Source: Bacteroidota bacterium
Lineage (GTDB): Bacteria > Bacteroidota > Ignavibacteria > Palsa-1295
DNA: 64,000 nt
Direction of reading: 5' to 3'
Assembly (NCBI GenBank): GCA_021324685.1
Contig: JAJPIQ010000085.1
Coordinates: 62,001 to 126,000, forward strand
How positions within the stretch are numbered: position 1 is the first letter of the stretch; the number at the start of each line of letters is the position of its first letter. Shown here in pieces: positions 20,522-36,120 of the stretch. The position numbers were made by a program, and so were the translations under genes. The notes beneath the pieces are model-generated. The model saw only the letters and a program-made list of their open reading frames with translations. It was not told where the DNA came from and ran no database searches.

Positions 20522-21727
20522 ATGTACGGAAAAATTCAGCAGGAACTACAATCGGAGCTTGAGGCCATCCGCGATGCGGGGCTCTATAAGAACGAGCGGG
20601 AGATCACGACGGCGCAGGGTGTCGAGATCGAGGTCAAGGGCCGCCCGGGGATCGTCTTAAACTTTTGCGCGAACAATTACCTCGGGCTTTCTTCGCATCC
20701 AAAGGTCATCGCGGCGGCGCGAAAAGCACTCGAAACGCATGGCTATGGAATGTCGAGCGTCCGGTTCATCTGCGGGACGCAGGACCTGCATAAAGAACTC
20801 GAGCATGAAATTTCTCGCTTCCTGCATACGGACGATACGATCCTCTATGTCGCCTGCTTCGATGCCAACGGCGGTGTATTCGAACCGCTTTTCGGCGAGG
20901 AGGACGCGATCATTTCGGACGAGTTGAACCATGCTTCGATCATCGATGGCGTTCGCCTTGCGAAAGCGAAACGGTTCCGGTATAAACATGCGGACATGAA
21001 GGACCTCGAGGTGCAACTGCTCGAAGCCCAGTCCAGCCGGCGGCGAGTGATCGTCACCGATGGCGTCTTTTCGATGGATGGCGACATAGCGAAACTATCG
21101 GAGATTTGCGATCTTGCGGATACATACGATGCGCTCGTCATGGTGGACGATTCGCACGCAACAGGATTTGTCGGCAAAACCGGCCGCGGTTCCATCGAGC
21201 ATGAGAATGTCATGGGCCGCGTCGATATCGTAACCTCGACCCTCGGCAAAGCCTTGGGGGGCGCGGCGGGAGGCTTTACGTCCGGCCGTAAGGAAATTAT
21301 CGAGATGCTGCGTCAGCGTTCGAGGCCATATCTGTTTTCGAATACGCTCCCGCCGCCGATCGCAGGGGCGGCGCTGGAAGTGCTGCGTATGCTCGGCGAA
21401 ACGACCGAACTTCGCGATAAACTGGAAGCGAACACGAAATACTTCCGTGACAAGATGACGGAAGCCGGCTTCGATATTAAGCCGGGAATCCATCCCATCG
21501 TACCGATCATGCTCTACGATGCACCGCTTGCGCAGAAATTCGCCTCTCGCCTGCAGGACGAAGGCATATATGTCACCGGATTTTTCTATCCCGTTGTCGC
21601 GAAAGGACAAGCACGGATACGCGTGCAAATTTCCGCTGCACACGAACGCCATCACCTCGACCGCGCCATTGGCGCCTTTACCAGGGTGGGCGAGGAATTA
21701 GGCGTATTGAAATTAGAAACCGCTTAA
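20522..21727 (+). CDS. kbl: Glycine C-acetyltransferase (2-amino-3-ketobutyrate CoA ligase)
   Basis: This PLP enzyme cleaves 2-amino-3-ketobutyrate with CoA to glycine and acetyl-CoA in threonine degradation. The protein is close to E. coli Kbl throughout: [75 protein letters not shown], the PLP-contact VDDSHATGF and the Schiff-base lysine in TLGKALGG (Lys243). [15 protein letters not shown] and [13 protein letters not shown] separate it from BioF-type paralogues. 401 residues is normal. The usual partner tdh is not adjacent. Confidence 0.95.
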
Positions 21728-22270: not shown

Positions 22271-23284
22271 ATGAAAACATTTCGGTGGTTTGCACGGGCC
22301 ATGTCCGCGTGCTGTTTCGCGTTTTTTGCCGTTCCCTCCATTCAGGCGCAGTTGCCTCCTGGAATCTATTCCAATTGCGATTTTTGCATGTGTTCGATGG
22401 GTATTTCGCCACTCAGTATGAATGGCTCCTCGGTCCGATTCGATTCCCGCTACACGGAGCTCGGACAGGAATTCTCGAACGGGAACCGTGTCCCCAACCC
22501 CACGGGCGCACGGGAGACTTACCTTACGGACGTGCTTTCACTACGCGGGCAAATCACGGACGATTTCTCCGCAACGCTGATGGTCCCCTTCGCTCACAAA
22601 GCCGAGAGTTCGAACGATCCCACAAATAGCCTTGCGAATATTTCCAATTCCGGCGTAGCGGATATGTCGCTCCTTTTTCGTTACAATCTTATCGCCGATC
22701 ATAACGGCGGAACGATGGCCGGTGCCAACATGAGGATGCTTAGCGTAACCGCGGGCGTTAAATTTGCCAACGGATCTACGTCGCTCATCTATAATGGCTC
22801 GCCCGCGGATCCCGACGTACAACTTGGGACCGGAACTACCGATTTCTATGGCGGTCTGGGATATCTTCTCGGCTTTAATGGTTGGAACGTGGAAGCCGAT
22901 GCCCTGGGAATGGTTCACGGTTTTGGCTCCGGCTCAAGCTGTCATACCTACGGCGATAACATCAACTACGACGTAATGGCCGAGTACCGTCTGTACGAAG
23001 ACCAAAGTTTTATACCAACGTTGCTCAGTCCTACCGTCTTTGGCTCGCTTGCGATCCGTGGCGAATGGCGCGGATACGAGACGCAGGATGGCCAGCCACT
23101 CGATAACGATTTCCTTGGTTGGTCCGGCGGCAACGTGGTGTATGTTGCGCCAGGTTTTCAGGTGTTCTTTGCGCCGCGCGTGTCGCTCGATGCGTCTGTA
23201 TGGCTTCCCGTTATCCACGCACTCCCTGGAAATCAATTAGGCGAGACTATAAAAGCCATGGGGGGCATTCAGGTCGGGATGTAG
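22271..23284 (+). CDS. Outer-membrane beta-barrel-like protein with N-terminal CxxCxC motif
   Basis: 337 residues. Signal peptide MKTFRWFARAMSACCFAFFAVPSIQAQ, then a mature N-terminus with CDFCMCSMG and MNGSSVRFDSRYTELG. The rest alternates polar and hydrophobic residues in amphipathic strands with many Gly/Asn/Asp turns (RGQITDDFSATLMVPFAHK, VADMSLLFRYNLI, YGGLGYLLGFNGWNVEADALGM, VYVAPGFQVFFAPRVSLDASVWLPV), like outer-membrane transporter/phenol-degradation MetA-type barrels. The Cys cluster at the periplasm-exposed N-terminus could bind metal, in keeping with the upstream Cys/His protein. No TonB box or plug is seen. Function unknown. Confidence 0.7.
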   Translation: MKTFRWFARAMSACCFAFFAVPSIQAQLPPGIYSNCDFCMCSMGISPLSMNGSSVRFDSRYTELGQEFSNGNRVPNPTGARETYLTDVLSLRGQITDDFSATLMVPFAHKAESSNDPTNSLANISNSGVADMSLLFRYNLIADHNGGTMAGANMRMLSVTAGVKFANGSTSLIYNGSPADPDVQLGTGTTDFYGGLGYLLGFNGWNVEADALGMVHGFGSGSSCHTYGDNINYDVMAEYRLYEDQSFIPTLLSPTVFGSLAIRGEWRGYETQDGQPLDNDFLGWSGGNVVYVAPGFQVFFAPRVSLDASVWLPVIHALPGNQLGETIKAMGGIQVGM

Positions 23285-23311: not shown

Positions 23312-25774
23312 CTACCATCCAACGCGATGGACGGTGCGGCCGTCGCTGACAAGCAGCACCGCCCCATCGCGGTCCGTTCGGCAAATGCTTGATCCTGAAG
23401 AGAGCCATCGCTTTATAACCGCGGGGGCCGGATGACCGAAGACGTTATGCTCGCCCACCGAAATGACAGCATACGAAGCATTGGTCGCTTCGATAAACTG
23501 CTTCGAAGAACTGGTGAGGCTGCCATGGTGCGATACTTTTACAACGTTCGAGCGTAGAAAACTTCCATAGTTCGAGAGCATCGCTTCTTCTTCGCTTCGT
23601 TCTATATCTCCGAGAAATAAAAAGCTGGTCGCACCGTACCTCACCTGGAACGCAAGGACGCCACTGTGAATATTTTGTCCGAATGCGGTCCGCTCCGAAG
23701 CTAAGACATGGCGATCGGGACTTAACACATAGAGCACGATCCCCGAATCGAGATGGAGCGTATCGCCTCGAGCAAGGATGCGAGTCTCGACCTTGCGTTC
23801 GCGAGCGGCGAACTCCAATTCCCTTGCGGCGGTGCTTGCCATACGCTCGCCGCTGCTAAAGAGCGTGCTGACGGAAGCATTTTCCAGCAACGCCGGAGCA
23901 CCGCCTATGTGGTCGACGTGAAGATGGCTGATAAAGCCGGCTTCGACATCCGTGATATTTTCCGCTCGAAGAAATGGCAGCGCCGTTCGTTCGAAGACGG
24001 AGTTCCCGTCGTAATCGCTTTTACCGAAGTCCACAAAGTACGTTTTGCCACTCGGGGTATGGAGTAAAATACAATCGCCCTGTCCCACATCGAAAAAGAG
24101 GACTTGGAGCTTCCCTTCGTTCCTGGCAAGGACCGAATTCGAAAACGGAAGCCCGAGTTCATGAAGTGCAAAGAACAGGGCAAGGACCAGCGTACAACGA
24201 CCGACGAGTTCCCGGCGCGTTTTTGCAATGAGGCAGTAGGAGACACCAATAATAAATAATGTCAGAAAACCGACACTGGGCGAACCCGCGGCTCTCGATG
24301 CAAATAAAACATGAGCGAAGAATTTTGTAAGGGCCAGAAGTCCGATCGCTAAATATCCAGTGGCGTCGCCGTAGAGTTGACCAAGCCAGTGAGAAAGTGC
24401 GGTCAGGGGGATCAATAAAAATCCCAACGCGGTAATAAGGGCCGAAAGCGGTATCAAGGGGACGTTCGCAGCAAGGCCGATAAACGAAATGCGATAGAAA
24501 TGAGCTGCTATGACCGGATACGATGCGATCGACGCTCCGACCGATAATGCAACAGCACTCCCCGTTTGCTTGACAAACCTACTTTCGAGCATACGATATC
24601 GTGAAGGTCCATCGTCTTTTGAATCCAATTTTAACAGCCACAATATTTTGGGAGTGACGAGGACCATTCCCAATACGCCTGCATAGGAAAGCTGGAATCC
24701 AACATCGAAAAGATCGAAAGGGCGGAGTATCAGGTTGATCGCCATGGCACTCATTACGATATTGAGGGGATCCGGCTTGCGTTCGAGGAGTTGCGCCACG
24801 AGATACAGTTCGATCATCATGAGTGCACGGACGACGCTGGGCTGAAAGCCTACGATCGCGGAATACAAGAGGACCATAAGCATTGTGAGCGAAATCCTGG
24901 TACGGTGCCAGTAGATACCGAAGATTCGCAGAAGTTGAGCAACGACAAGCGAAACAATCGCGACATTGAAGCCACTGACGGCCAGGATATGTGCGACCCC
25001 GGAAGCGGTAAAGTCATTAAGCGTCTCTTTCGACATGTCGCTTCGGTCCCCCAGGACCACGGCCTCGACAAATCCGCGGGCATTATCGTCACGGATAGCA
25101 CTATCGAGCAATGAGAGGATCGAGCGATGGATGCCATCGATGGAGCTCGATATGTGTGTCCATACGTTCGATTGCGCGGGTTCTAAAACATAGTAATCGA
25201 ATCTGGAATGAATTTCTCCCTGTGCCTCTGTTCGGGTTGCTGTCTGAAGCTTTAAATCACTTGCAAATTCATGCGGATTCGTCGCGGGCTTGAACGGTTC
25301 CAGCGAATTATAGACACGAAGTCTCGACCCCACTTCCGGCAACCGTATATGTTCTCTTGAAGAGTTTGAAAGATATAATAAAATGTTACCGTGAACTCGA
25401 ACCGGTCTTTCCCGGGCGATCCCCAGGCTATCGACTTCGAACGTCCATTGATAACCATGTTTTGTTTCATCGATCTCACTCAGGGTCCCGACCACGACCG
25501 TTTTGGGCGGCCTCAGGGAAGCGATCCTTGCGATCACCGTATCGCGGTAAGACCGGCCTTCAAAGCTTGTAAGGCAATATCCGAGGAATAGGAAGAAAAG
25601 GAAAATGGCGACCAGTCGAGGGGCCGGCATGCGAATAATGATAGCTCCACATGCAACCGCGACGGCTCCCGCGAACCAAAGAATACCGACGCTTGAAAAG
25701 GAAAGATTGCTTCCGAGGACAATTCCCAACGCGAGAGCGATCGCAGCGAAGAGCGCAGGACGGCCTTGGAACAT
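23312..25774 (-). CDS. comEC: ComEC/Rec2-family DNA-uptake channel protein
   Basis: ComEC translocates single-stranded DNA across the inner membrane during natural transformation. The 820-residue chain has two N-terminal hydrophobic helices, a DUF4131-type soluble region, then the multi-helix Competence domain (FTASGVAHILAVSGFNVAIVSL, GFQPSVVRALMMIELYLVAQLLERKPDPLN, and VGFQLSYAGVLGMV are diagnostic). The C-terminal part is a metallo-beta-lactamase-like domain with DVGQGDCILLHTP, HLHVDHIGG (from residue about 617), LFLGDIE and VSHHGS; the metal-binding residues look intact. It begins 33 bases after the last IgGFc-like gene and may be transcribed with it. No other com genes are in the window. 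Confidence 0.95.
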   Translation of the reverse strand: MFQGRPALFAAIALALGIVLGSNLSFSSVGILWFAGAVAVACGAIIIRMPAPRLVAIFLFFLFLGYCLTSFEGRSYRDTVIARIASLRPPKTVVVGTLSEIDETKHGYQWTFEVDSLGIARERPVRVHGNILLYLSNSSREHIRLPEVGSRLRVYNSLEPFKPATNPHEFASDLKLQTATRTEAQGEIHSRFDYYVLEPAQSNVWTHISSSIDGIHRSILSLLDSAIRDDNARGFVEAVVLGDRSDMSKETLNDFTASGVAHILAVSGFNVAIVSLVVAQLLRIFGIYWHRTRISLTMLMVLLYSAIVGFQPSVVRALMMIELYLVAQLLERKPDPLNIVMSAMAINLILRPFDLFDVGFQLSYAGVLGMVLVTPKILWLLKLDSKDDGPSRYRMLESRFVKQTGSAVALSVGASIASYPVIAAHFYRISFIGLAANVPLIPLSALITALGFLLIPLTALSHWLGQLYGDATGYLAIGLLALTKFFAHVLFASRAAGSPSVGFLTLFIIGVSYCLIAKTRRELVGRCTLVLALFFALHELGLPFSNSVLARNEGKLQVLFFDVGQGDCILLHTPSGKTYFVDFGKSDYDGNSVFERTALPFLRAENITDVEAGFISHLHVDHIGGAPALLENASVSTLFSSGERMASTAARELEFAARERKVETRILARGDTLHLDSGIVLYVLSPDRHVLASERTAFGQNIHSGVLAFQVRYGATSFLFLGDIERSEEEAMLSNYGSFLRSNVVKVSHHGSLTSSSKQFIEATNASYAVISVGEHNVFGHPAPAVIKRWLSSGSSICRTDRDGAVLLVSDGRTVHRVGW

Positions 25775-25807: not shown

Positions 25808-28800
25808 CTACTTTTGTATAACGATCTTCTTCGCCCTCACGTAATTACCGGCTTTCATTTGAACCAAGTAGGTCCCACTCGGCAGTGCGGAAGCGTCGAT
25901 GCGGGCAGTGTAGTATCCCGGCTGTGTGAAGCCCTCGGCGATCGTTTGAACAATATTCCCCTGCTGCCCCACCAGGACGATCTGGGCATTGCCGGACTCT
26001 GAAATATCGTATGCGATCTGGATCGGTGAACCCTGTCCTTCGAGCGTTCCGGCGGGATTCGGCGTGGGGTTCCCAAGCATCATGGCCGAAGGGATCGCCG
26101 GCTGCGGTTCGAGATACTGCGTCCCGCAGGCGGGATCGATGGCGACATAACCGCTATCGAAGAGATGGTTCGCACACGGATACGGGATGGTAGCATCGCT
26201 GAAGGCCGTCGTAAAGTGGATCGGGTATCCGGCCTGGAATGTGTTCGGATCCACATCTCCCGCCACCGGCTGGAACTTAAGCCAGATCAGGGGAAGCGAG
26301 CTGTCGCCGCCACCGGTAATAGGAGTGTTCCCGCTTAATTTTCCTTCGCCTCCCTGCTGAAAAATGATCGTGTCATTGCCCGGTACGGAAGAATAGAGTT
26401 CCGGATATCCCGGCGGCGTGAGCGTATTCGTCATGACGATGTCCACGAGCTTCAGGTGCGTCGCATCGTAATGGAGAATGATCTGATACCCGTCCGCACC
26501 GTCGGCATTAAGCGAGTCCTTCGCGTAGATCGGCACAAGGAAACTATTATCGAGAATGTAGGCGTGAATGTTCGTTGGAATCGCAAGCTCGAAGGTGAGC
26601 TTATTTCCAGAACCGGCAAGCGCTACCGTGTCCGGCTTTGCATTCTTTGGGAGATCGAATGTAAGGACGGCGCTTGCAGATCGAATTCCTGTATCGACCG
26701 GTGAAAAGAGCACCTGCACGGCAGCAGAACCATGAGCAGGAATGACGAGGGGTGTTGGAGATGAGACAGCAAAATCTGCCGCGTTCGCACCGGCGATACT
26801 TGCTCCGGTGACCGTGACCGGAAGGTCGTTATTATTCGGGATCGTAATGTTAAAGACCGAATCGTCACAGACGAGGGTCGATCCCCAGGATATCGCTGCG
26901 ACAGCCGGAGCCAGTGCCGTGATCGTTTCGATGCGAGCGAGGAGCACCACCACATGTGTGCTCGATTTCGAGGTGATCGTGAGCTGGGCTGTATAATATC
27001 CATTGGCCATCCCAGGATTCGGCGTAAATCTCAGGCCGATCTTTGCTGCGCCCGATGGCGGCTCCGGGATCGAAAACGTTGGTGTGACCGGTGATCCATT
27101 ATAAAGAATTCCGGTCATGCTGAAATCGGTCGGGTCACCGGTGATCTGAACATTTGAAACGTCGAGACCGGCCGTTCCCGCGTTTCCGACATACACTTCG
27201 GAGTCGGCGGCGAGATCGGATTTATCGAACGTTCCAAAGAAAAGAGTATCGATCGTATAGATTTTGTTCGTATCCCGGAAGACACCCATTTCGTCCATCA
27301 CCCCGCGGCCGTAGACATCGACAACATAAGCGCGAAGGTGGTCGGTCTTCGCGGTGATCTGCGTATGCATTCGTCGGTTGACCTCGTGTGGCCAGAATTC
27401 AATCGTAAACGAATCGGTCGCGAGAGGAGCAATGGTGAGTGGAATTCCAGGACCGCCAAAAGAAGGTCCCGTCGGAGTCGGTGTGATAGTGTTACCGTTC
27501 GAAGTTTGTGCAACGTAAAATCGATCGGTATCTCCAATGCGGCGTGGAAAGGAATAAACATTAACCGTATCGGTCGAAACGTTTTGCAGGACGACCGTGG
27601 TATCGAAGTGGTCGGAGTTGGAGTATTGGTATGGCGGCGTAATATCGGCAGCGGCCAACACACGATCCCCGAAATCGATCGAAAGAGCGACCGTCTTAAG
27701 CGGCGTAATGGTTTTAAGTCCCGTACCTCCCGTGTACGCATAGCTATCGACGGGACCCAGTGCATAGACCGTGACACCAAAAGGCTTTGCACCGGAAATA
27801 TTATGAGTTCCCTGCTCGAGCGAGTGCTGTGCGTAGGCAAAGCGTGTATTGGGGATCGGTTGAAACTCCGCCGGGTTCATGGGGACGCCGTCGATCGTCA
27901 TGGAATTCACGGCGCTCTGGTCAGCGACGATATTTACGAAGTTTCCCGTGAAGGCGTCCGCATTGATGATGCTGAGTATGGTGTAAGAAGTTACAAATTG
28001 TTCGACTGGAAAAACCAGTGCCAGCGCAGGATCGCCATAGGCCGGAGGAAACGGATTGCTGATACCGCCTTTACTCGTGTGCATATACTGCCCCACTTCG
28101 ATCGGTTTCGTGGCCTGGATTGACGTAACGCCCTGCAGTTGATGTATCTCGTAAAAATCCCCGGCGTTGAACCACTTTCCTATCAACGAGCCATTGACGG
28201 AGATTTGAGTGCTATCCTCCGCACAGACGACACGCACAAGATCGGGCAATGCAGAAGTCGCATACGGAACAACGAGTGCGGAATCGCCCCAGGCACTTAC
28301 AGGCGGCAACTGCTCTACTAAATGGTCGCGACTTGGCGTCCCATCAGAATTGACCGCCCCGGCCGGCATTTCCGTTCGTTTATGTCCACTGAAAACGGCG
28401 ATCGGCTGGTCGGACTCGACCAGGCTCCCGGTCAGATCGTTCGAGTGGTTTTGCTGGCCCTGCACAAGGTAAACATCGCCTTTATTCATACGGACGGTAA
28501 CCGGCCGGTTTGCAGGGGTGCCAACCGATGAGGGATTTCGAAGCGTAATGGTCACATTGGTCGAGTCGACAACGGCAACGATCCAGAATTCTCCGGGTGT
28601 TGTACTTCCGAATCCATCTCCCGAAGAGTTGTAATTCATTGTGCGATATTCGGTGCCCAGAACATTCACCGGCAGCCCCATAAACGCATCGCTCGAATAA
28701 AGCTTATGGTTGAGACCGAAGACGGCCACTACACTGTCGCTCGTGATATGAACGGCCATGCCTTTTACGACCTGCTCGTCCTGAAAATCTTTTAGTTCGA

Positions 28801-29176
28801 CGGTTTCAAGCGTATTCGTCCCGTCAGGTAAATGAACGGTCGTAATTTGGCCGGGCGTGGTAGTGAAGGTTTGAAAGAAGTTTAACGCCGGGATTTCAAC
28901 CGTTCCTTTAGCGGGGACATGGCTCGTGAGGTAGAGGTCCATGACGTTGTGGTCCTCATCTCCGCCTAAGTTTGGGCCGAAAGCGACATAAAATTCAGTG
29001 CCGAAGTTATCGCGCTGGACGTTTTGAGCGAGTGCGGAGTGCGAAAGTCCCAAAATAAGAAAAAAAGCAATAGCCACCCCGCCAGTCTTAAGCTGGTGAA
29101 TGAGCGGATTCAGCTTCCTTGATTTAGGACGACACATGAGAGGAATCTGCTGTACCTCCTCGAAGTAAAATGCCAT
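25808..29176 (-). CDS. IgGFc-binding-like T9SS protein A (1122 aa, with choice-of-anchor-type domains)
   Basis: The signal peptide lies inside a long leader (…GGVAIAFFLILGLSHSALAQ); an internal ATG at 29137 is an alternative start. Residues ~50-480 are an IgGFc-binding-protein N-terminal-like module: NFGTEFYVAFGPN, SSDAFMGLPVNVLGTEYRTMNY, IAVFSGHKRTE and SRDHLVEQLPPVSAWGDS. Residues ~480-880 hold several Ig-like segments of the SPD-2/Hydin (choice-of-anchor D) type with TVALSIDFGDRV, FGGPGIPLTIAP and ALAGSGNKL; a cohesin-like segment follows (HAYILDNSFLVPIYAKDSL … HYDATHLKLVDI). The last ~90 residues (GNPTPNPAG … ALPSGTYLVQM … KKIVIQK) are a T9SS type A sorting domain. Adhesion or surface coating is inferred. 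Third of three paralogues in order of transcription. Confidence 0.85.
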   Translation of the reverse strand: MAFYFEEVQQIPLMCRPKSRKLNPLIHQLKTGGVAIAFFLILGLSHSALAQNVQRDNFGTEFYVAFGPNLGGDEDHNVMDLYLTSHVPAKGTVEIPALNFFQTFTTTPGQITTVHLPDGTNTLETVELKDFQDEQVVKGMAVHITSDSVVAVFGLNHKLYSSDAFMGLPVNVLGTEYRTMNYNSSGDGFGSTTPGEFWIVAVVDSTNVTITLRNPSSVGTPANRPVTVRMNKGDVYLVQGQQNHSNDLTGSLVESDQPIAVFSGHKRTEMPAGAVNSDGTPSRDHLVEQLPPVSAWGDSALVVPYATSALPDLVRVVCAEDSTQISVNGSLIGKWFNAGDFYEIHQLQGVTSIQATKPIEVGQYMHTSKGGISNPFPPAYGDPALALVFPVEQFVTSYTILSIINADAFTGNFVNIVADQSAVNSMTIDGVPMNPAEFQPIPNTRFAYAQHSLEQGTHNISGAKPFGVTVYALGPVDSYAYTGGTGLKTITPLKTVALSIDFGDRVLAAADITPPYQYSNSDHFDTTVVLQNVSTDTVNVYSFPRRIGDTDRFYVAQTSNGNTITPTPTGPSFGGPGIPLTIAPLATDSFTIEFWPHEVNRRMHTQITAKTDHLRAYVVDVYGRGVMDEMGVFRDTNKIYTIDTLFFGTFDKSDLAADSEVYVGNAGTAGLDVSNVQITGDPTDFSMTGILYNGSPVTPTFSIPEPPSGAAKIGLRFTPNPGMANGYYTAQLTITSKSSTHVVVLLARIETITALAPAVAAISWGSTLVCDDSVFNITIPNNNDLPVTVTGASIAGANAADFAVSSPTPLVIPAHGSAAVQVLFSPVDTGIRSASAVLTFDLPKNAKPDTVALAGSGNKLTFELAIPTNIHAYILDNSFLVPIYAKDSLNADGADGYQIILHYDATHLKLVDIVMTNTLTPPGYPELYSSVPGNDTIIFQQGGEGKLSGNTPITGGGDSSLPLIWLKFQPVAGDVDPNTFQAGYPIHFTTAFSDATIPYPCANHLFDSGYVAIDPACGTQYLEPQPAIPSAMMLGNPTPNPAGTLEGQGSPIQIAYDISESGNAQIVLVGQQGNIVQTIAEGFTQPGYYTARIDASALPSGTYLVQMKAGNYVRAKKIVIQK

Positions 29177-29216
29177 CGTTTATAAGACCCCGGACGGCAT
29201 GATTAGTTACAGAAAA

Positions 29217-29222
29217 ATTATA
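29217..29222 (-). promoter_or_regulatory. Possible -10 box for IgGFc-like gene A
   Basis: TATAAT on the minus strand about 41 bases upstream of the 29176 start, inside the 103-base gap between paralogues A and B. No good -35 hexamer is seen, so this is weak evidence that gene A can be transcribed separately. Confidence 0.25.
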
Positions 29223-29279
29223 AGAAAATGGGAAAAATGAGGGCTGGAAGACCGAGAAGGAAGCAGTGCGGGAGAGGCC

Positions 29280-32200
29280 TTAATTTTCAACCTGAATTTT
29301 CGCCTCACGTACCGGGCCGGGTGTGCCATCTGCTCGAACGGTCTCTATCCGAAGAAAGGCAAGACCAGAAGCCGGTAAAAGGTTGGACGGCAGTTCGATC
29401 GTGCCATTGCCGCTCATGAGATTTATGTCGAGATGCCCCGATTCGACGCCGGCTTCATTGAAGATCGATAAACTCGCCACTACGGGTTCGGATGCGCGAT
29501 ATGCGAGCTGCACTCCTCCGCCGGCCGCCACCGGGTTCGGCGAGAGGCCGATCAGCGTAAAGATCGGCGATTCGTGCATCATAAAGTTCCTTATCGTTTT
29601 GTCGCCGCAATCGTCCGCGTAAGGGATCGAAAGTGTAAAGCTCTGCAAATTATACGCACAGGGATGCTGCGCCCATGTGAAAGTCGGAGTAACGACAACC
29701 GTCGTATCGACCGTTAAATAGGCCCGCATCAGAATATCGAGCAAGAGATCGTTCGCAATTCTCGCCGAGTCAGAGACCGCCGACCCCGTAACGACGATCG
29801 TATAGGTTCGCGTCGCCTGGTCCCAGTAGGTACTGATCGTGTAGTTCGAGTCCCCGGGAACAGCAAGCGCATTCGTCGTATCGATCCCGACCGGCTCGAA
29901 AAGATCGTTCGAGAATTGGAGCGAAAGCGTCCAGCTATTGAGTTCGGACACTCCGGCCCTTGGGCCTTCCACCGTGATCGGTAATTTCAGATCGGAAATA
30001 TCGTTGGCGCTCGAAACGAACTGCGGCAAATGAGCGTGGAGCGTGAATACGCGTTGCTTCCGGACGAGGCTTGCCGTCAGCGTATCGACCGTAGCGGGCT
30101 CCCCATCCAGGCGGCGCTGGAACACCAGGAGTTTTGTGAGCTGCGAACCGTTCAGACTGTCGGCAGGAAATGAGTAATAGAGGAAAAGTGGATAGCTGCT
30201 GTCCGGAGCGATATTGATCGGAAGGTTGAAGGTCGAAGGATGGTAACTGAACCCTCCGCTCGATGGAACGAATGCAAGGCTATCGATATGCACTTCGACC
30301 GGATAGGGATTGTGGAGTACGATATCGTTCGTAATGGTGTCGCAGGTGGTGACAACGCCGAAATCGGTGCTCGCCGGCCCAATGGGACCCGTGCGAACTT
30401 TTGCCTTCAAAATAATCATCGGCCGATAAGAACCGAGCGAGTCATAAAGCCAATAGCGAGTATCGTTGTGCGCATAGAGCGTGTCGAGGAAATCGCCTTC
30501 GTCCGTCACCATGAAACTAACGGTTCCCGTCAGCACCTCGCCGACCGAAAGGGCTTCGGGGATCGCCGTAGCGGGCGGATTCAATGCCACAAGAAAATGA
30601 GCGGTATCGCGATGCACCAACGAGTCGAGTTCGGCGGCCATGGTGGCCGTGTCGGAATTTAAGATCGTAAACGGAAGTGAGACCGGCGGCTGGGGTGCCG
30701 TCCCTGGCAATACAGTGATCGTTCCAAAATCGAGGACCGGCGGACTCACCAGCACGAGCGGTTCCGTCCCCTTTCCAAGGAGCGTATCGTACAGCACGAT
30801 TCCATCGACCGTATGGATTCGAACGATCACCTGCTTAGCGCCGATCGACCTTGGCTGGAAATGGACAACGAACTCGAGGACCGTGTCGGCACCGTCATAT
30901 CCAAGTCGCGCCGGAAGTTTCCGCGAAAGTGTGTCCATTTGAAAATCGGCGCTGGGATCGAATGAAACGCTATCGATCGCACTCGTGTCCGAACCGCGAT
31001 TTACGATCGTTATCGTGTCGGGCGGTGCCGTCGAATCGACGCGCCAGGAACCGAAATCGTGGCCCGTTGAAGTGACATTCGGTTCTACCCCGGTCCCTAA
31101 CAGGATGACAACCGGTGTATCGTTTAATAGTCCCGTAATACTATCGATCCAATCGATCGGTATTTTACCGACCTGTAGCCCTGTTTTTTTGGGAAGGAAA
31201 TGGACGGAATCTCGGACGGCTCCCGCTACCGGATTGACCAGCGGATACAAGATCAGCTTATTGCCCGAACTTGGGACGGTGTTAGCCGTAAAATCGGTAC
31301 CCGATAAATTCGTTCCAAAATCGAGGTCCGTCAGTGTGACCTGATATTGCCCAACGTTCTCGATAATATAGCTGCTATCGCGATTCTGACCGAGTCGAAC
31401 TCGGCCGAAATCGATCGTGTCCGGCAAGACTGCAACCTGAGGTGCAATCCCGCTGCCCTGCACATGAATGAATACGGAATTCACAGCGCTGGACCAGACC
31501 CGAAGCGTCGCCTTATAAAAACGTGCGGAATCCGGATGAAATCGTATCGGAATTTGCGGTTGTGAAAGGGGCGGCACAAGAAGCGGTTTTGCGATCGGAT
31601 TCACAATATCGAACGCGTTCGTGTCGCCACTCACCCATTCATAGCCATACACCGTCACGGTATCCGTCGCCATGGGCACGACGGAACTATACATAAGCGA
31701 CGGCAGGACCGGTCGCGCGTTCACAGCCACGGCATGGAAATCGAGATCGATAGCGAACAGGCTGTCGATGTAAGGATAATCGCCGCCGCCGGCGTAGGTG
31801 TAAGAGTCCTGAAATCCGAACGCATAGGACTCCGCATAGCACGGTAGTGAACTTTGAATTCGTTCTTCCCCGATCGAAGGAAAAAAAATCCCATATTGGA
31901 AATTCGTCCCGGGGATTCGTTTCCACCGGCCATCGAGTGTTGGGGATGGATGAGCCCCATTGAGGAACGTCGTCGAGGTCGCCGAAGTATCAGAAACGAT
32001 CAGAAGGCGCCCCTGAGTGAATATTTCCGGGTCGTGAACGCCAGGAAGGGTATACTCGGCTGCAAACTGATCGACCGGGCGACAAAGGGTGAAGTCCGGG
32101 TCGCCGATGCCATCCGTATTCCAGTTCCCATCCTGCATAAAATGAGCGACGAGGATGGGTTGATCGCTTTGGACGACGCTCGTTCCTCCGGACATGAAAT

Positions 32201-33425
32201 CGCAATGCTCGCCGGCATTCAGTGTATACGATGCCGTTCCATTGACAGAAATATGCGTGGAATTTTGGGATGCAAGGACTCGAACAGCATCGCCGCCCGG
32301 AAACCGGGTATCGCTTGAATCCTGTCCGGCGCCACACACGATAAAGCTCTTTCCCCACGCTGAAATCGGCACCATTTGTTCGATCAAATGATCCCGGGAG
32401 GGGTTTGCGGTGTATTGATATTCCAGTGTGAACGGTGCGGTCGAACGTTCATGGCCGCTGAAGACAGCGATCGGTTTGTTCGACGTAATATAGGAACCCG
32501 TCAGATCGCAATCGGGGCCACCATTCCAGGGAGCGTAAAGTTCCGTCCAGTCCGGAGCGGCGTTTCCGGGCGGCTCGCTTGCGACGTGAACGCCCGTATC
32601 CTTCGCCATGATCTGATAGACCTGCCCTCGGTCGAGCGTAATCGAATAGGTGGAGTCCGCTAAGAGGCGTCCCGAAAACGAGGTCGCGGAAAGCGTAAAA
32701 TAAACGACGGTATTATCCTCGGTCGCGACAATCGCGAATTCGCTGCGGGCATGAACACCCAGCGAGAACGCCGAATAATTGACCGCGTTGCGTGAACTCA
32801 TGGCATAATACGAAGTTCCCAGAGACGGTACCGGGTACAGGACAAATCCGTCAGAGCTTTTTTCATTATGCGAGAACCCATAGACGGAAATTACATCCGT
32901 AGAATAAACATGCACAACCTTGTTCTCAATGAGTTCGTAATCGTCGGCTCCGAGCGCGATCCCGCTCGGCAGGTCCACGCGGACCATCGTACCGGGATCA
33001 ACAATAAACGTGTTTTTATAGGAGGAGTGGAGAATTTCAACCGTTACCCTGGCCGGGGCTCGGGCGGCAATAAAAAGTGAGCGAAGTGTATCGCCATCGG
33101 AATTCCCCACCACCGAAAGAAAGCACCCATAAAATTCGCTCCCAGCGGCAGTCCAATTCGTATGCAGGGACAATGTCTGCAACGAATGCGTCGGGTCGGT
33201 CCGGGCTGCTTTCTTTACGCGAGTAAACGCATGCTGAAGCGCACGAGCAGGAAAGGAATGTAATTTCGAGGCGTTCTGCTCTGAATTCTCGGAATTTTGT
33301 GCTGAAACGCGTAAGCCGGAGCCAGCAATGAATAAGAAGATTGCGAAAAAACAGATTACGGACAGAGAGTTAGAAAAGCGGCCGTCCTTTTCCTGTTTCA
33401 CCGTCCGTAATCGTTCACAGTCCAT
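29280..33425 (-). CDS. IgGFc-binding-like T9SS protein B (1381 aa)
   Basis: Largest of the cluster. Signal region SVICFFAIFLFIAGSGLRVSAQ. The N-terminal module shows AGSEFYGCFLSVVG, SSDGFVLYPVPSLGTSYYAMS, IAVFSGHERST and SRDHLIEQMVPISAWGKSF, matching protein A. The middle holds at least four SPD-2/Hydin-like Ig repeats (IDFGRVRLGQNRDSSYIIENVG, HDFGSWRVDSTAPPDTITIVNRG, LDFGTITVLPGTAPQPPVSL, TDFGVVTTCDTITNDIVLHNP). A cohesin-like region and a C-terminal ~90-residue sorting domain (LIGLSPNPVAAGGGVQLAY … ASLSIFNEAG … FLRIETV) close the chain. The ATG lies two bases after the stop of gene C, so the two are translationally linked. A role as large surface adhesin or matrix protein is inference. Confidence 0.85.
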   Translation of the reverse strand: MDCERLRTVKQEKDGRFSNSLSVICFFAIFLFIAGSGLRVSAQNSENSEQNASKLHSFPARALQHAFTRVKKAARTDPTHSLQTLSLHTNWTAAGSEFYGCFLSVVGNSDGDTLRSLFIAARAPARVTVEILHSSYKNTFIVDPGTMVRVDLPSGIALGADDYELIENKVVHVYSTDVISVYGFSHNEKSSDGFVLYPVPSLGTSYYAMSSRNAVNYSAFSLGVHARSEFAIVATEDNTVVYFTLSATSFSGRLLADSTYSITLDRGQVYQIMAKDTGVHVASEPPGNAAPDWTELYAPWNGGPDCDLTGSYITSNKPIAVFSGHERSTAPFTLEYQYTANPSRDHLIEQMVPISAWGKSFIVCGAGQDSSDTRFPGGDAVRVLASQNSTHISVNGTASYTLNAGEHCDFMSGGTSVVQSDQPILVAHFMQDGNWNTDGIGDPDFTLCRPVDQFAAEYTLPGVHDPEIFTQGRLLIVSDTSATSTTFLNGAHPSPTLDGRWKRIPGTNFQYGIFFPSIGEERIQSSLPCYAESYAFGFQDSYTYAGGGDYPYIDSLFAIDLDFHAVAVNARPVLPSLMYSSVVPMATDTVTVYGYEWVSGDTNAFDIVNPIAKPLLVPPLSQPQIPIRFHPDSARFYKATLRVWSSAVNSVFIHVQGSGIAPQVAVLPDTIDFGRVRLGQNRDSSYIIENVGQYQVTLTDLDFGTNLSGTDFTANTVPSSGNKLILYPLVNPVAGAVRDSVHFLPKKTGLQVGKIPIDWIDSITGLLNDTPVVILLGTGVEPNVTSTGHDFGSWRVDSTAPPDTITIVNRGSDTSAIDSVSFDPSADFQMDTLSRKLPARLGYDGADTVLEFVVHFQPRSIGAKQVIVRIHTVDGIVLYDTLLGKGTEPLVLVSPPVLDFGTITVLPGTAPQPPVSLPFTILNSDTATMAAELDSLVHRDTAHFLVALNPPATAIPEALSVGEVLTGTVSFMVTDEGDFLDTLYAHNDTRYWLYDSLGSYRPMIILKAKVRTGPIGPASTDFGVVTTCDTITNDIVLHNPYPVEVHIDSLAFVPSSGGFSYHPSTFNLPINIAPDSSYPLFLYYSFPADSLNGSQLTKLLVFQRRLDGEPATVDTLTASLVRKQRVFTLHAHLPQFVSSANDISDLKLPITVEGPRAGVSELNSWTLSLQFSNDLFEPVGIDTTNALAVPGDSNYTISTYWDQATRTYTIVVTGSAVSDSARIANDLLLDILMRAYLTVDTTVVVTPTFTWAQHPCAYNLQSFTLSIPYADDCGDKTIRNFMMHESPIFTLIGLSPNPVAAGGGVQLAYRASEPVVASLSIFNEAGVESGHLDINLMSGNGTIELPSNLLPASGLAFLRIETVRADGTPGPVREAKIQVEN

Positions 33426-33427
33426 GG

Positions 33428-35536
33428 TTACTCACCCGCCACGATCGGCACTCGCTCATTGATATGGAGCTTTTGCGATGTGATCACGCAGGTGTACACG
33501 CCATCCGGCAACCCGCGCCGCTCGATGCGAACGGAATAGGGGCCGGCCGGGAATTCGGAGGACGCTACCTGCTGGACGACACGCCCTAATTCATCGTAAA
33601 GCACCATGGTGATATCGCCGGTCTCGGGAACCGAAAAATTAACCGTCGTATAACTCGAGAACGGATTCGGACTTGCAAAGGCCGAAAGTGCCGGCGAATT
33701 ATTTTCTGCCACTCCGGCCTCCGCATCGGGATAGAGCGTGAACGGCATCTCAGCCGGCTCGAGGTTCATATACGAAGGCAGGTGTGAATAAATCCGGAGC
33801 GTCCCCTCGACCGGAGCCGGCAGTTGATCATCGGAAACAAGATGGATCTCAGCCGACTGACCGACCGGAAGTACGCCAATATCGTAAGCGATTCGTTCCT
33901 TGACGTGAATCCCAAGATTGCGCATCTTCGGGTTGTCCGCAATAAACACGGCACTGTCGAGATAAGCATCCTGATATGCGGTGTTGCGGAAATCAATGGT
34001 ATTCGTGTGATGCCCCCCCATCGCCTGCGGTGGATATTGGATACCGATCGCGCGTTTCGGGACCAATAAAATTCCCGCCGTATAGCCGTAGGAAATAACT
34101 TTGCCGAGGCCATAACTTAAAATCGTAAAACCGTCTTCCGGCGGCATCATGGACGTAATGGTGTGGGCGCCCTGATTGAACCCGGTATATTCCGTTAGCG
34201 CATAGGCATGTCCGCCGATCGATCCTGGAACCTTTTGAAAAATGCGGCCCGGCAGCGCTTGTCCGTCGAAGAGGATCGAATTCTGGGCGAGCGTATCCGT
34301 GACAATAATAACCTTTTGAAGCGGATAATCGAGCTTGTCCGGAGCGAAAAACGTATAATTATTGAACGATTGGTCGACCGCGGGAACAACGGCGAGAAAG
34401 GGATCGCCGTTTGAATTATTATTGATATCGGTATGGGCGTATTCGCCAACCAGGAGCGCGCCGGAACCTTTAACCAGGACCGGGCTGGAGATCATCGAAT
34501 CGGCGAACTGGTTGTGATTCAACGTAACCCAGGGATTGCCATTGACCGTTACGGTCGTATTGTCGTTCAGCGCAACGACGCGCATGAGGTCGCCGCCGGG
34601 ATTTTTTGTTCCCTGCGCGTCGATGTCGATGGCGTTCAGTACGAACGCCGTTCCCCATGCGCTCGTCGGAGGCATCGCTTCCAGGAGCATATCCCGACTG
34701 GTGCTGACGTCGGTGCGAAGGAATTGATATGGGATTTCCGTACGCGCGTGGCCGGAATACACGGCCACCGGTTTGTCGGAGGCAACGGTGGAACCGGTAA
34801 GGTCCAGCGCATCGACCGATGGATCGGTCTGGACCTGATAGCCCTGGCCGGATTGAAGCGTGACCTGAAACGGAACGCCTGCGGCCCGTCCGCCTGCCGT
34901 TGCCGCCGAAGGGGTAATTGTAACCGTGGTGTTGTCCTGGAACGCGGCAACAGCAAATTGCGAAGGCATCCAATCCCCGGAAGTATATGCCTGGGGATTA
35001 TTGGAATTCGGATAGCTAAGGATGCGATACTCGGCCGCGGCGGATTCAAAGGGCAATGCGAGGAATGCATCGGCCGTCGCGTCTTTATTATTCAGACCAT
35101 AACATACAATGGGCGATGTCGATTGGACCTTGACCACGCGATCGTCGGGAACTTCATCGCTCGTCAGCCATAGGTTCGACATTTCATCCGAAATTCGATA
35201 TGTTTTAGAACTATCGGCTTGCAGGAACAGGACCTTACTGACCGTAGGATGACTGTTGGTTGTAATCGTAACGGTTGCGGTATCTCCCAGGGAGGCGACG
35301 TAAATCTCCAAGAACTCATCGTCATTGGGTTCTGAGTCCCGATAATTATTCTGCTCGAAGCACAACAAAAAATTTGTTCCCGCATTCGAGGGCGTACCCG
35401 TGATCGCCGTTCCATTGCAGTCGGGCCTGATCTTTTGTGCTTCCGCCTTGGAGCAAAAGAGGAAAACGACGAAAGCAAATAGGACGGGTATGAAGCGAGT
35501 CCGTCGAACGTTCGGAAAAGAGTGAGTTGTATTCAT
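33428..35536 (-). CDS. IgGFc-binding-like T9SS protein C (702 aa)
   Basis: First gene of the cluster by transcription. Signal peptide within the first 34 residues (FIPVLFAFVVFLFCSKAEAQ). It has essentially only the shared N-terminal module (NAGTNFLLCFEQNNYRD, TADAFLALPFESAAAEYRILSYPN, VAVYSGHARTE, SRDMLLEAMPPTSAWGTAF, then SYGYTAGILLVPKRAIGIQYPP) plus one Ig-like segment and the T9SS sorting domain (SAFASPNPFSSYTTVNFSV … ITMVLYDELGRVV … LPDGVYTCVI). It therefore defines the minimal unit of the family. A 116-base upstream gap separates it from dtd and has a possible -10 (tatatt) on the minus strand near 35583. Confidence 0.85.
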   Translation of the reverse strand: MNTTHSFPNVRRTRFIPVLFAFVVFLFCSKAEAQKIRPDCNGTAITGTPSNAGTNFLLCFEQNNYRDSEPNDDEFLEIYVASLGDTATVTITTNSHPTVSKVLFLQADSSKTYRISDEMSNLWLTSDEVPDDRVVKVQSTSPIVCYGLNNKDATADAFLALPFESAAAEYRILSYPNSNNPQAYTSGDWMPSQFAVAAFQDNTTVTITPSAATAGGRAAGVPFQVTLQSGQGYQVQTDPSVDALDLTGSTVASDKPVAVYSGHARTEIPYQFLRTDVSTSRDMLLEAMPPTSAWGTAFVLNAIDIDAQGTKNPGGDLMRVVALNDNTTVTVNGNPWVTLNHNQFADSMISSPVLVKGSGALLVGEYAHTDINNNSNGDPFLAVVPAVDQSFNNYTFFAPDKLDYPLQKVIIVTDTLAQNSILFDGQALPGRIFQKVPGSIGGHAYALTEYTGFNQGAHTITSMMPPEDGFTILSYGLGKVISYGYTAGILLVPKRAIGIQYPPQAMGGHHTNTIDFRNTAYQDAYLDSAVFIADNPKMRNLGIHVKERIAYDIGVLPVGQSAEIHLVSDDQLPAPVEGTLRIYSHLPSYMNLEPAEMPFTLYPDAEAGVAENNSPALSAFASPNPFSSYTTVNFSVPETGDITMVLYDELGRVVQQVASSEFPAGPYSVRIERRGLPDGVYTCVITSQKLHINERVPIVAGE

Positions 35537-35652: not shown

Positions 35653-36120
35653 CTATAAAGTAACGGTTTTGTCATTTTCTCTTTGCAGAAGAATCGTTAC
35701 CGGACCGTCGTTGGTGAGTTCAACGGCCATCCGGGCTCGGAATTTCCCGTTGGCTACACGGTCCGTCCCTAAAAGTCCTCGTAAATTCGTAAGGTAATCC
35801 TCGTAGAGCCGTTCGGCCCTTTCAGGCTCGGCTGCGGCCATGAAATTCGGGCGATTCCCCTTTTTGAGATCGCCATAGAGCGTAAACTGGCTAACGGCGA
35901 GCACACTTCCCCCTGTCTCCATGAGTGAAAGATTCATTTTTTTCAAATTGTCCTCAAAAATGCGGATTTGGGCCGTTTTTTCAGCCATCCATTGCACTTC
36001 CACCTCTGTATCGGCTTCATGGATTCCGACAAAAGCGACAAGTCCATGACCGATCGAACCGATCAATTCGGAATCGACCGTAACCGAGGCACGACTGACT
36101 CGCTGTATAAGAATTCGCAT
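35653..36120 (-). CDS. dtd: D-aminoacyl-tRNA deacylase
   Basis: Dtd hydrolyses D-aminoacyl-tRNAs (and glycine mischarged on tRNA-Ala), using the tRNA 2'-OH rather than a side-chain nucleophile. 155 residues, with MRILIQRVSRASVTV at the N-terminus, the active-site SQFTLYGD (77-84) and the cross-subunit Gly-cisPro motif NDGPVT (137-142). TAQIRIFEDNLKKMNLSL is also typical. All motifs and length are standard. It is divergent from rimP, sharing a ~100-base upstream region. Confidence 0.97.
   Translation of the reverse strand: MRILIQRVSRASVTVDSELIGSIGHGLVAFVGIHEADTEVEVQWMAEKTAQIRIFEDNLKKMNLSLMETGGSVLAVSQFTLYGDLKKGNRPNFMAAAEPERAERLYEDYLTNLRGLLGTDRVANGKFRARMAVELTNDGPVTILLQRENDKTVTL

Follow-up and report, generated by a model that had tools for sequence, protein, structure and literature searches.

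The three adjacent genes designated A, B and C probably constitute an old, vertically inherited trio encoding paralogous Kapabacterial (Bacteroidota) surface proteins that are exported by the type IX secretion system (T9SS) and carry heads that bind glycan or protein. The trio, which the preliminary description had recognized correctly in outline, is ancient, and its family, PF17517, was known already, albeit obscure in function. The internal repeats of the characteristic module and a paired Arg/Cys switch go further than that description.

Within the window, i.e. the whole 64-kb stretch of DNA that was analyzed, A, B and C are open reading frames on the minus strand, in the series dtd-C-B-A-comEC (Table 1). 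The gaps between genes are 116 nt (dtd/C), 2 nt (C/B), 103 nt (B/A) and 33 nt (A/comEC), and this spacing is the one basis on which the three genes may be taken to be co-expressed. Sigma-70-like and terminator-like signals in the 64-kb window were as frequent as in shuffled sequences, the promoters not exceeding chance, and no exact TTTG/TANNTTTG matches were present in the window. PADLOC returned no anti-phage defence matches, and the sole PHROGs match was the ASH region of B. Beyond comEC, two plus-strand genes of the window (22271-23284 and 20522-21727) have a position that is also kept in several relatives. The latter shares 80-92% identity with its counterparts, far above neighbouring genes, and the former gave no Pfam match above the cut-off.

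Table 1. Coordinates of the trio, its flanking genes and its sequence features (positions in the window; residue numbers are those of the protein concerned)
Feature	Position	Strand	Description
dtd (D-Tyr-tRNA deacylase)	35653..36120	(-)	Upstream flank, conserved
Protein C	33428..35536	(-)	702 aa: signal peptide, PF17517 module, one beta domain, T9SS type A tail
N-terminal module of C	34055..35401	(-)	Residues 46-494, envelope
SGHART of C	34739..34756	(-)	Residue 261
SRDMLLE of C	34679..34699	(-)	Residue 280; Met in place of second His
T9SS type A sorting domain of C	33467..33673	(-)	Pfam, NCBIfam
Protein B	29280..33425	(-)	1381 aa: signal peptide, PF17517 module, several ASH/SPD-2/Hydin-like domains, diverged T9SS-type tail
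N-terminal module of B	31776..33164	(-)	Residues 88-550, envelope
SGHERS of B	32442..32459	(-)	Residue 323
SRDHLIE of B	32379..32399	(-)	Residue 343
Choice-of-anchor D / SPD-2-Hydin-like domain of B	31155..31469	(-)	Residues 653-757, best of two stretches
Diverged T9SS-type tail of B	29283..29573	(-)	Residues 1285-1381; hhalign 96.9% to A tail
Protein A	25808..29176	(-)	1122 aa: signal peptide, PF17517 module, ASH/SPD-2/Hydin-like domains and a weakly cohesin-like one, T9SS type A tail
N-terminal module of A	27710..29023	(-)	Residues 52-489, envelope
SGHKRT of A	28373..28390	(-)	Residue 263
SRDHLVE of A	28313..28333	(-)	Residue 282
Choice-of-anchor D / SPD-2-Hydin-like domain of A	26654..26917	(-)	Residues 754-841, best of two stretches
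Weakly cohesin-like domain of A	26117..26581	(-)	Residues 866-1020, below cut-off
T9SS type A sorting domain of A	25817..26023	(-)	Pfam, NCBIfam
comEC-type competence protein	23312..25774	(-)	Downstream flank, conserved

Pfam scans confirmed the IgGFc-binding-like module that had been proposed as common to the three proteins. The PF17517 (IgGFc_binding) E values lie between 1e-57 and 1e-64 (2e-64 for A, 5e-63 for B and 1.5e-57 for C), with scores of 218, 214 and 196 bits, respectively, against a gathering cut-off of 25.6. Profile similarity between the modules extends over nearly the full length of the model (positions 1-296, 1-293 and 1-297 of 297 in A, B and C, respectively), and direct comparison of C with A gave 34% identity at an E value of 2.6e-45. 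Chance is excluded as the source of the likeness among modules and motifs. In a MAFFT seed alignment, the named motifs fell in homologous columns, in agreement with their near-equal spacing: SGHxR and SRDxLxE lie 19-20 residues apart in all three proteins and are accompanied by PxSAWG (PVSAWG at residue 292 of A, PISAWG at 353 of B and PTSAWG at 290 of C). The element described as SxDxFxxLP also occupies corresponding positions but is looser in sequence than had been claimed (SSDAFMGLP in A, SSDGFVLYP in B and TADAFLALP in C). Among 49 diverse modules, a single column, a Gly, is invariant.

The module is a stack of at least three homologous beta-repeats. Profile comparison between slices of the 49-sequence alignment showed that residues 48-185 (R1), 186-308 (R2) and 309-404 (R3) of C are homologous to each other, with values of 96.7% for R1-R2, 92.9% for R2-R3 and 66% for R1-R3. 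By the same comparison, membership of a fourth stretch, similar in make-up, could not be demonstrated. SxDxFxxLP in R1, SRDxLxE...PxSAWG in R2 and GDPxxxxxxPxxQ in R3 take the same place in successive repeats, and the separate diagnostic elements of the preliminary description are therefore one repeated element.

The history of the trio was approached through trees of 108, 106 and 51 modules, the last being the careful one. Orthologues of A, B and C formed separate clades in all three trees, with support in the 51-row tree of 98/99, 100/100 and 100/99, respectively. The 106-row tree grouped A, B and C with three further family members (SH-aLRT 95), which favours an origin of the three from one ancestor inside the family. 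In the 51-row tree, A and B were sisters (86/91), a relationship that these alignments moderately support, and the attachment of C was without support. The order dtd-C-B-A-comEC is intact in five relatives (G003, G005, G007, G009 and G012), partial in others, and holds down to about 32-45% identity; across syntenic relatives, identity is 42-62% for A and 32-55% for B. Because A, B and C each form an orthologous clade within this conserved gene order, the trio is taken to predate the family and to have been inherited vertically.

A recent, species-level local duplication that yielded three near-redundant adhesins would account for the tandem arrangement and the common ancestry of the modules, and fresh tandem duplicates do occur at this locus, although for C only: a second C is present in G012, G004 and G002. 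Nevertheless, A, B and C are each nearer to their orthologues in other genera than to their neighbours and keep the same syntenic place, and we give this scenario practically no credence, since the trees and synteny rule it out. What stands of the proposed origin by local duplication is the common ancestry of the modules and not a recent date; a local duplication in the family's stem lineage is likely but not proven. In G002, A lies on a different contig, leaving dtd-C-C-comEC at the locus.

The trio is part of a larger paralogous family, as had been anticipated. Seventeen PF17517 domains, one of them split, were found in this genome, and twelve relatives from its family have 9-26 matches apiece. 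Across the phylum, with up to seven candidates scored per genome, a match occurred in 68 of the 296 genomes sampled, and genomes outside the class had 1-5 each. A second tandem array in the genome (G000:C15:147002-163760, L029) comprises four same-strand PF17517 genes, three of which form one tight clade of the Cys-Cys form described below and represent a fresh local duplication. Two other copies are apparently broken, one by a single TAG inside the match (G000:C54:4956-6014; L022, L036) and one by division of the match between two overlapping frames (G000:C30:11380-15962, L038); either may reflect a real lesion or an assembly error.

Across the family, the Arg residues of SGHxR and SRD vary together. 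Among 108 modules, 49 have Arg at both positions, A, B and C being of this kind, and 25 have Cys at both; Cys occupies the first position alone in one module. When the set was widened to 138 rows, a few of them duplicate entries, Cys was paired in 32 of 33 cases, and the next best pair of Cys columns reached an overlap of 0.67 on six sequences. Parsimony required six changes at each of the two positions, but independent contrasts on well supported branches number about three, so that the switch is strong as a co-occurrence and weak as a count of events. The Cys-Cys form suggests a disulphide as its natural reading. The best PF17517 score of the genome belongs to a paralogue of ∼800 residues in the Cys-Cys form (G000:C83:53825-54712; L009, L031), counterparts of which occur elsewhere in the class, in other families (G037, G046 and G316, for instance). 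This paralogue may be of the ancestral type.

The AlphaFold2 model of C is all-beta and confident, with a mean pLDDT of 89.7; that of A is poorer, at 80.8. In the C model, the module (residues 46-494) is followed by a single beta domain at ∼500-605, and the sorting domain closes the chain. Protein C had been described as nearly the bare module plus a sorting domain, and both of these parts are present, with an extra beta domain of ∼105 residues between them. The SPD-2/Hydin-like domains assigned to A and B were recovered by the NCBIfam choice_anch_D model (E values of 4e-12 and 1.5e-21, respectively) and by ASH/HYDIN models, which match across orthologues of both proteins; Foldseek aligned the A model with PDB chains of Hydin/CFAP type from the central apparatus of cilia. 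Of the cohesin-like domains proposed for the same two proteins, that of A is a weak lead: Cohesin (PF00963) scored 12.4 bits against a cut-off of 24.1, the best Pfam E value among A orthologues was 0.014, and scaffoldin PDB chains matched at an E value of 0.7. The corresponding region of B had no detectable kinship to it (hhalign 8%).

T9SS-type sorting was borne out for A and C, which scored 27.5 and 24.3 bits with TIGR04183 (cut-off 23). Protein B gave no match to this model, which recognized one of eight B orthologues, but its tail is akin to that of A (Table 1). A start resembling a signal peptide can be read from the sequence of each protein, and the genome encodes a 2048-residue frame with SprA_N above the cut-off, i.e. 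one T9SS translocon gene. One B orthologue, a 787-aa frame (L072:4246-6606, G004), was matched solely in the part that follows the module, indicating that stalk and tail can persist without the head. No PF17517 protein was found among solved structures by sequence search, and in PDB fold searches with whole models the matches listed were strings of Ig-like domains, none of them over the module, so that a binding site cannot be located. Among the viral matches listed, the largest TM-score to the C model was that of the partial match BFVD Q6XLX4, FirrV-1-C4 of the brown-algal virus Feldmannia irregularis virus a (TM 0.36/0.46, rmsd 15.6).

On the basis of signal peptide, sorting domain and SprA, we infer surface display of the trio. 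Proteins A, B and C would be exported via Sec and then by the type IX system through the C-terminal domain, so that the PF17517 head of ∼440 residues would be displayed outward. The head of C would sit directly above the anchor and those of A and B on an Ig-like (ASH/SPD-2/Hydin) stalk, giving three heads of different reach maintained as a set. Most likely, the head would bind glycans or proteins, whether on neighbouring cells, in the matrix or on the substrate, thereby leading to adhesion or matrix assembly. This is the best guess given the architecture, the copy number and the roles of relatives in mucus and glue, and the frog glue protein PRIT-Dg, of which PF17517 modules are parts (PMC11237159), fits an adhesive, structural role. 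An adhesin role is plausible; adhesion is also the default guess for architectures of this type, and a relative reported for the module is an enzyme, both of which count against it as the best explanation. The literature searched held no account of the function of the bacterial module.

A rather unlikely alternative is that the trio consists of structural proteins of the matrix or glue type, the heads of which cross-link mutually or with an extracellular polymer and have no specific ligand. PRIT in frog glue and FCGBP in mucus are structural components of secretions, and the many paralogues per genome and the single invariant column, the Gly, of the 49 diverse modules would suit such a role. 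Against this, the separate conservation of A, B and C orthologues argues for distinct roles and not for interchangeable glue.

It is also conceivable, albeit improbable, that the head acts enzymatically, as a peptidyl L/D isomerase of the frog-skin type, on surface or secreted peptides through two His of the central repeat. The peptidyl-aminoacyl L/D isomerase of Bombina is a relative of the human FCGBP N-terminal domain. The two are most similar in a central region that contains two conserved His as well as a Cys pair, and the enzyme loses activity when His is modified (PMC3195878). The central repeat of the modules bears SGHx(R/C) and (R/C)(D/N)H as candidate counterparts, and both His are retained by almost every orthologue of A and B. 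However, both His are present in just 29 of 108 modules, the second is missing from the C of the window and from 7 more of the 14 C orthologues, and no Cys pair is present in A, B and C, which have Arg-Arg, Cys-Cys occurring in other paralogues. It is the presence of both central His in A and B, but not in the C of the window or most paralogues, that fixes our estimate. The broader proposition, that the modules are catalytic bacterial counterparts of the animal isomerase/FCGBP head, with an active site SGHx(R/C)...(R/C)(D/N)H in the central repeat in disulphide-bearing and Arg-Arg forms, and that the family edits surface peptides chemically, is more improbable still.

The lineage, with about 10-25 copies per genome and a syntenic orthologous trio, is a good system in which to study module function, and the internal repeats and the paired Arg/Cys switch provide concrete residues for testing. 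The members of PF17517 range from mucus and glue proteins of animals, through an enzyme that modifies peptides, to surface proteins of bacteria. The trio shares with FCGBP a module that matches nearly the full profile far above the cut-off but, in Pfam and NCBIfam scans, has none of its VWD domains; instead, the module is followed in A and B by ASH/SPD-2 domains, and there is a T9SS tail. Binding of IgG Fc is not expected of an environmental bacterium. PRIT-Dg likewise reuses PF17517 modules in a secreted, beta-rich protein, but with many modules per chain, disordered glycosylated spacers and a galectin partner, whereas A, B and C have one module each (PMC11237159). The Bombina isomerase, reported kin of the FCGBP N-terminal domain, has central His to which those of the trio may correspond but is catalytic and is reported to have a Cys pair, whereas A, B and C have Arg-Arg and C lacks the second His (PMC3195878). 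Finally, A and C resemble T9SS type A CTD surface proteins of Bacteroidota in their signal peptide and Por_Secre_tail, with SprA in the genome, whereas the tail of B has diverged below the model cut-offs.
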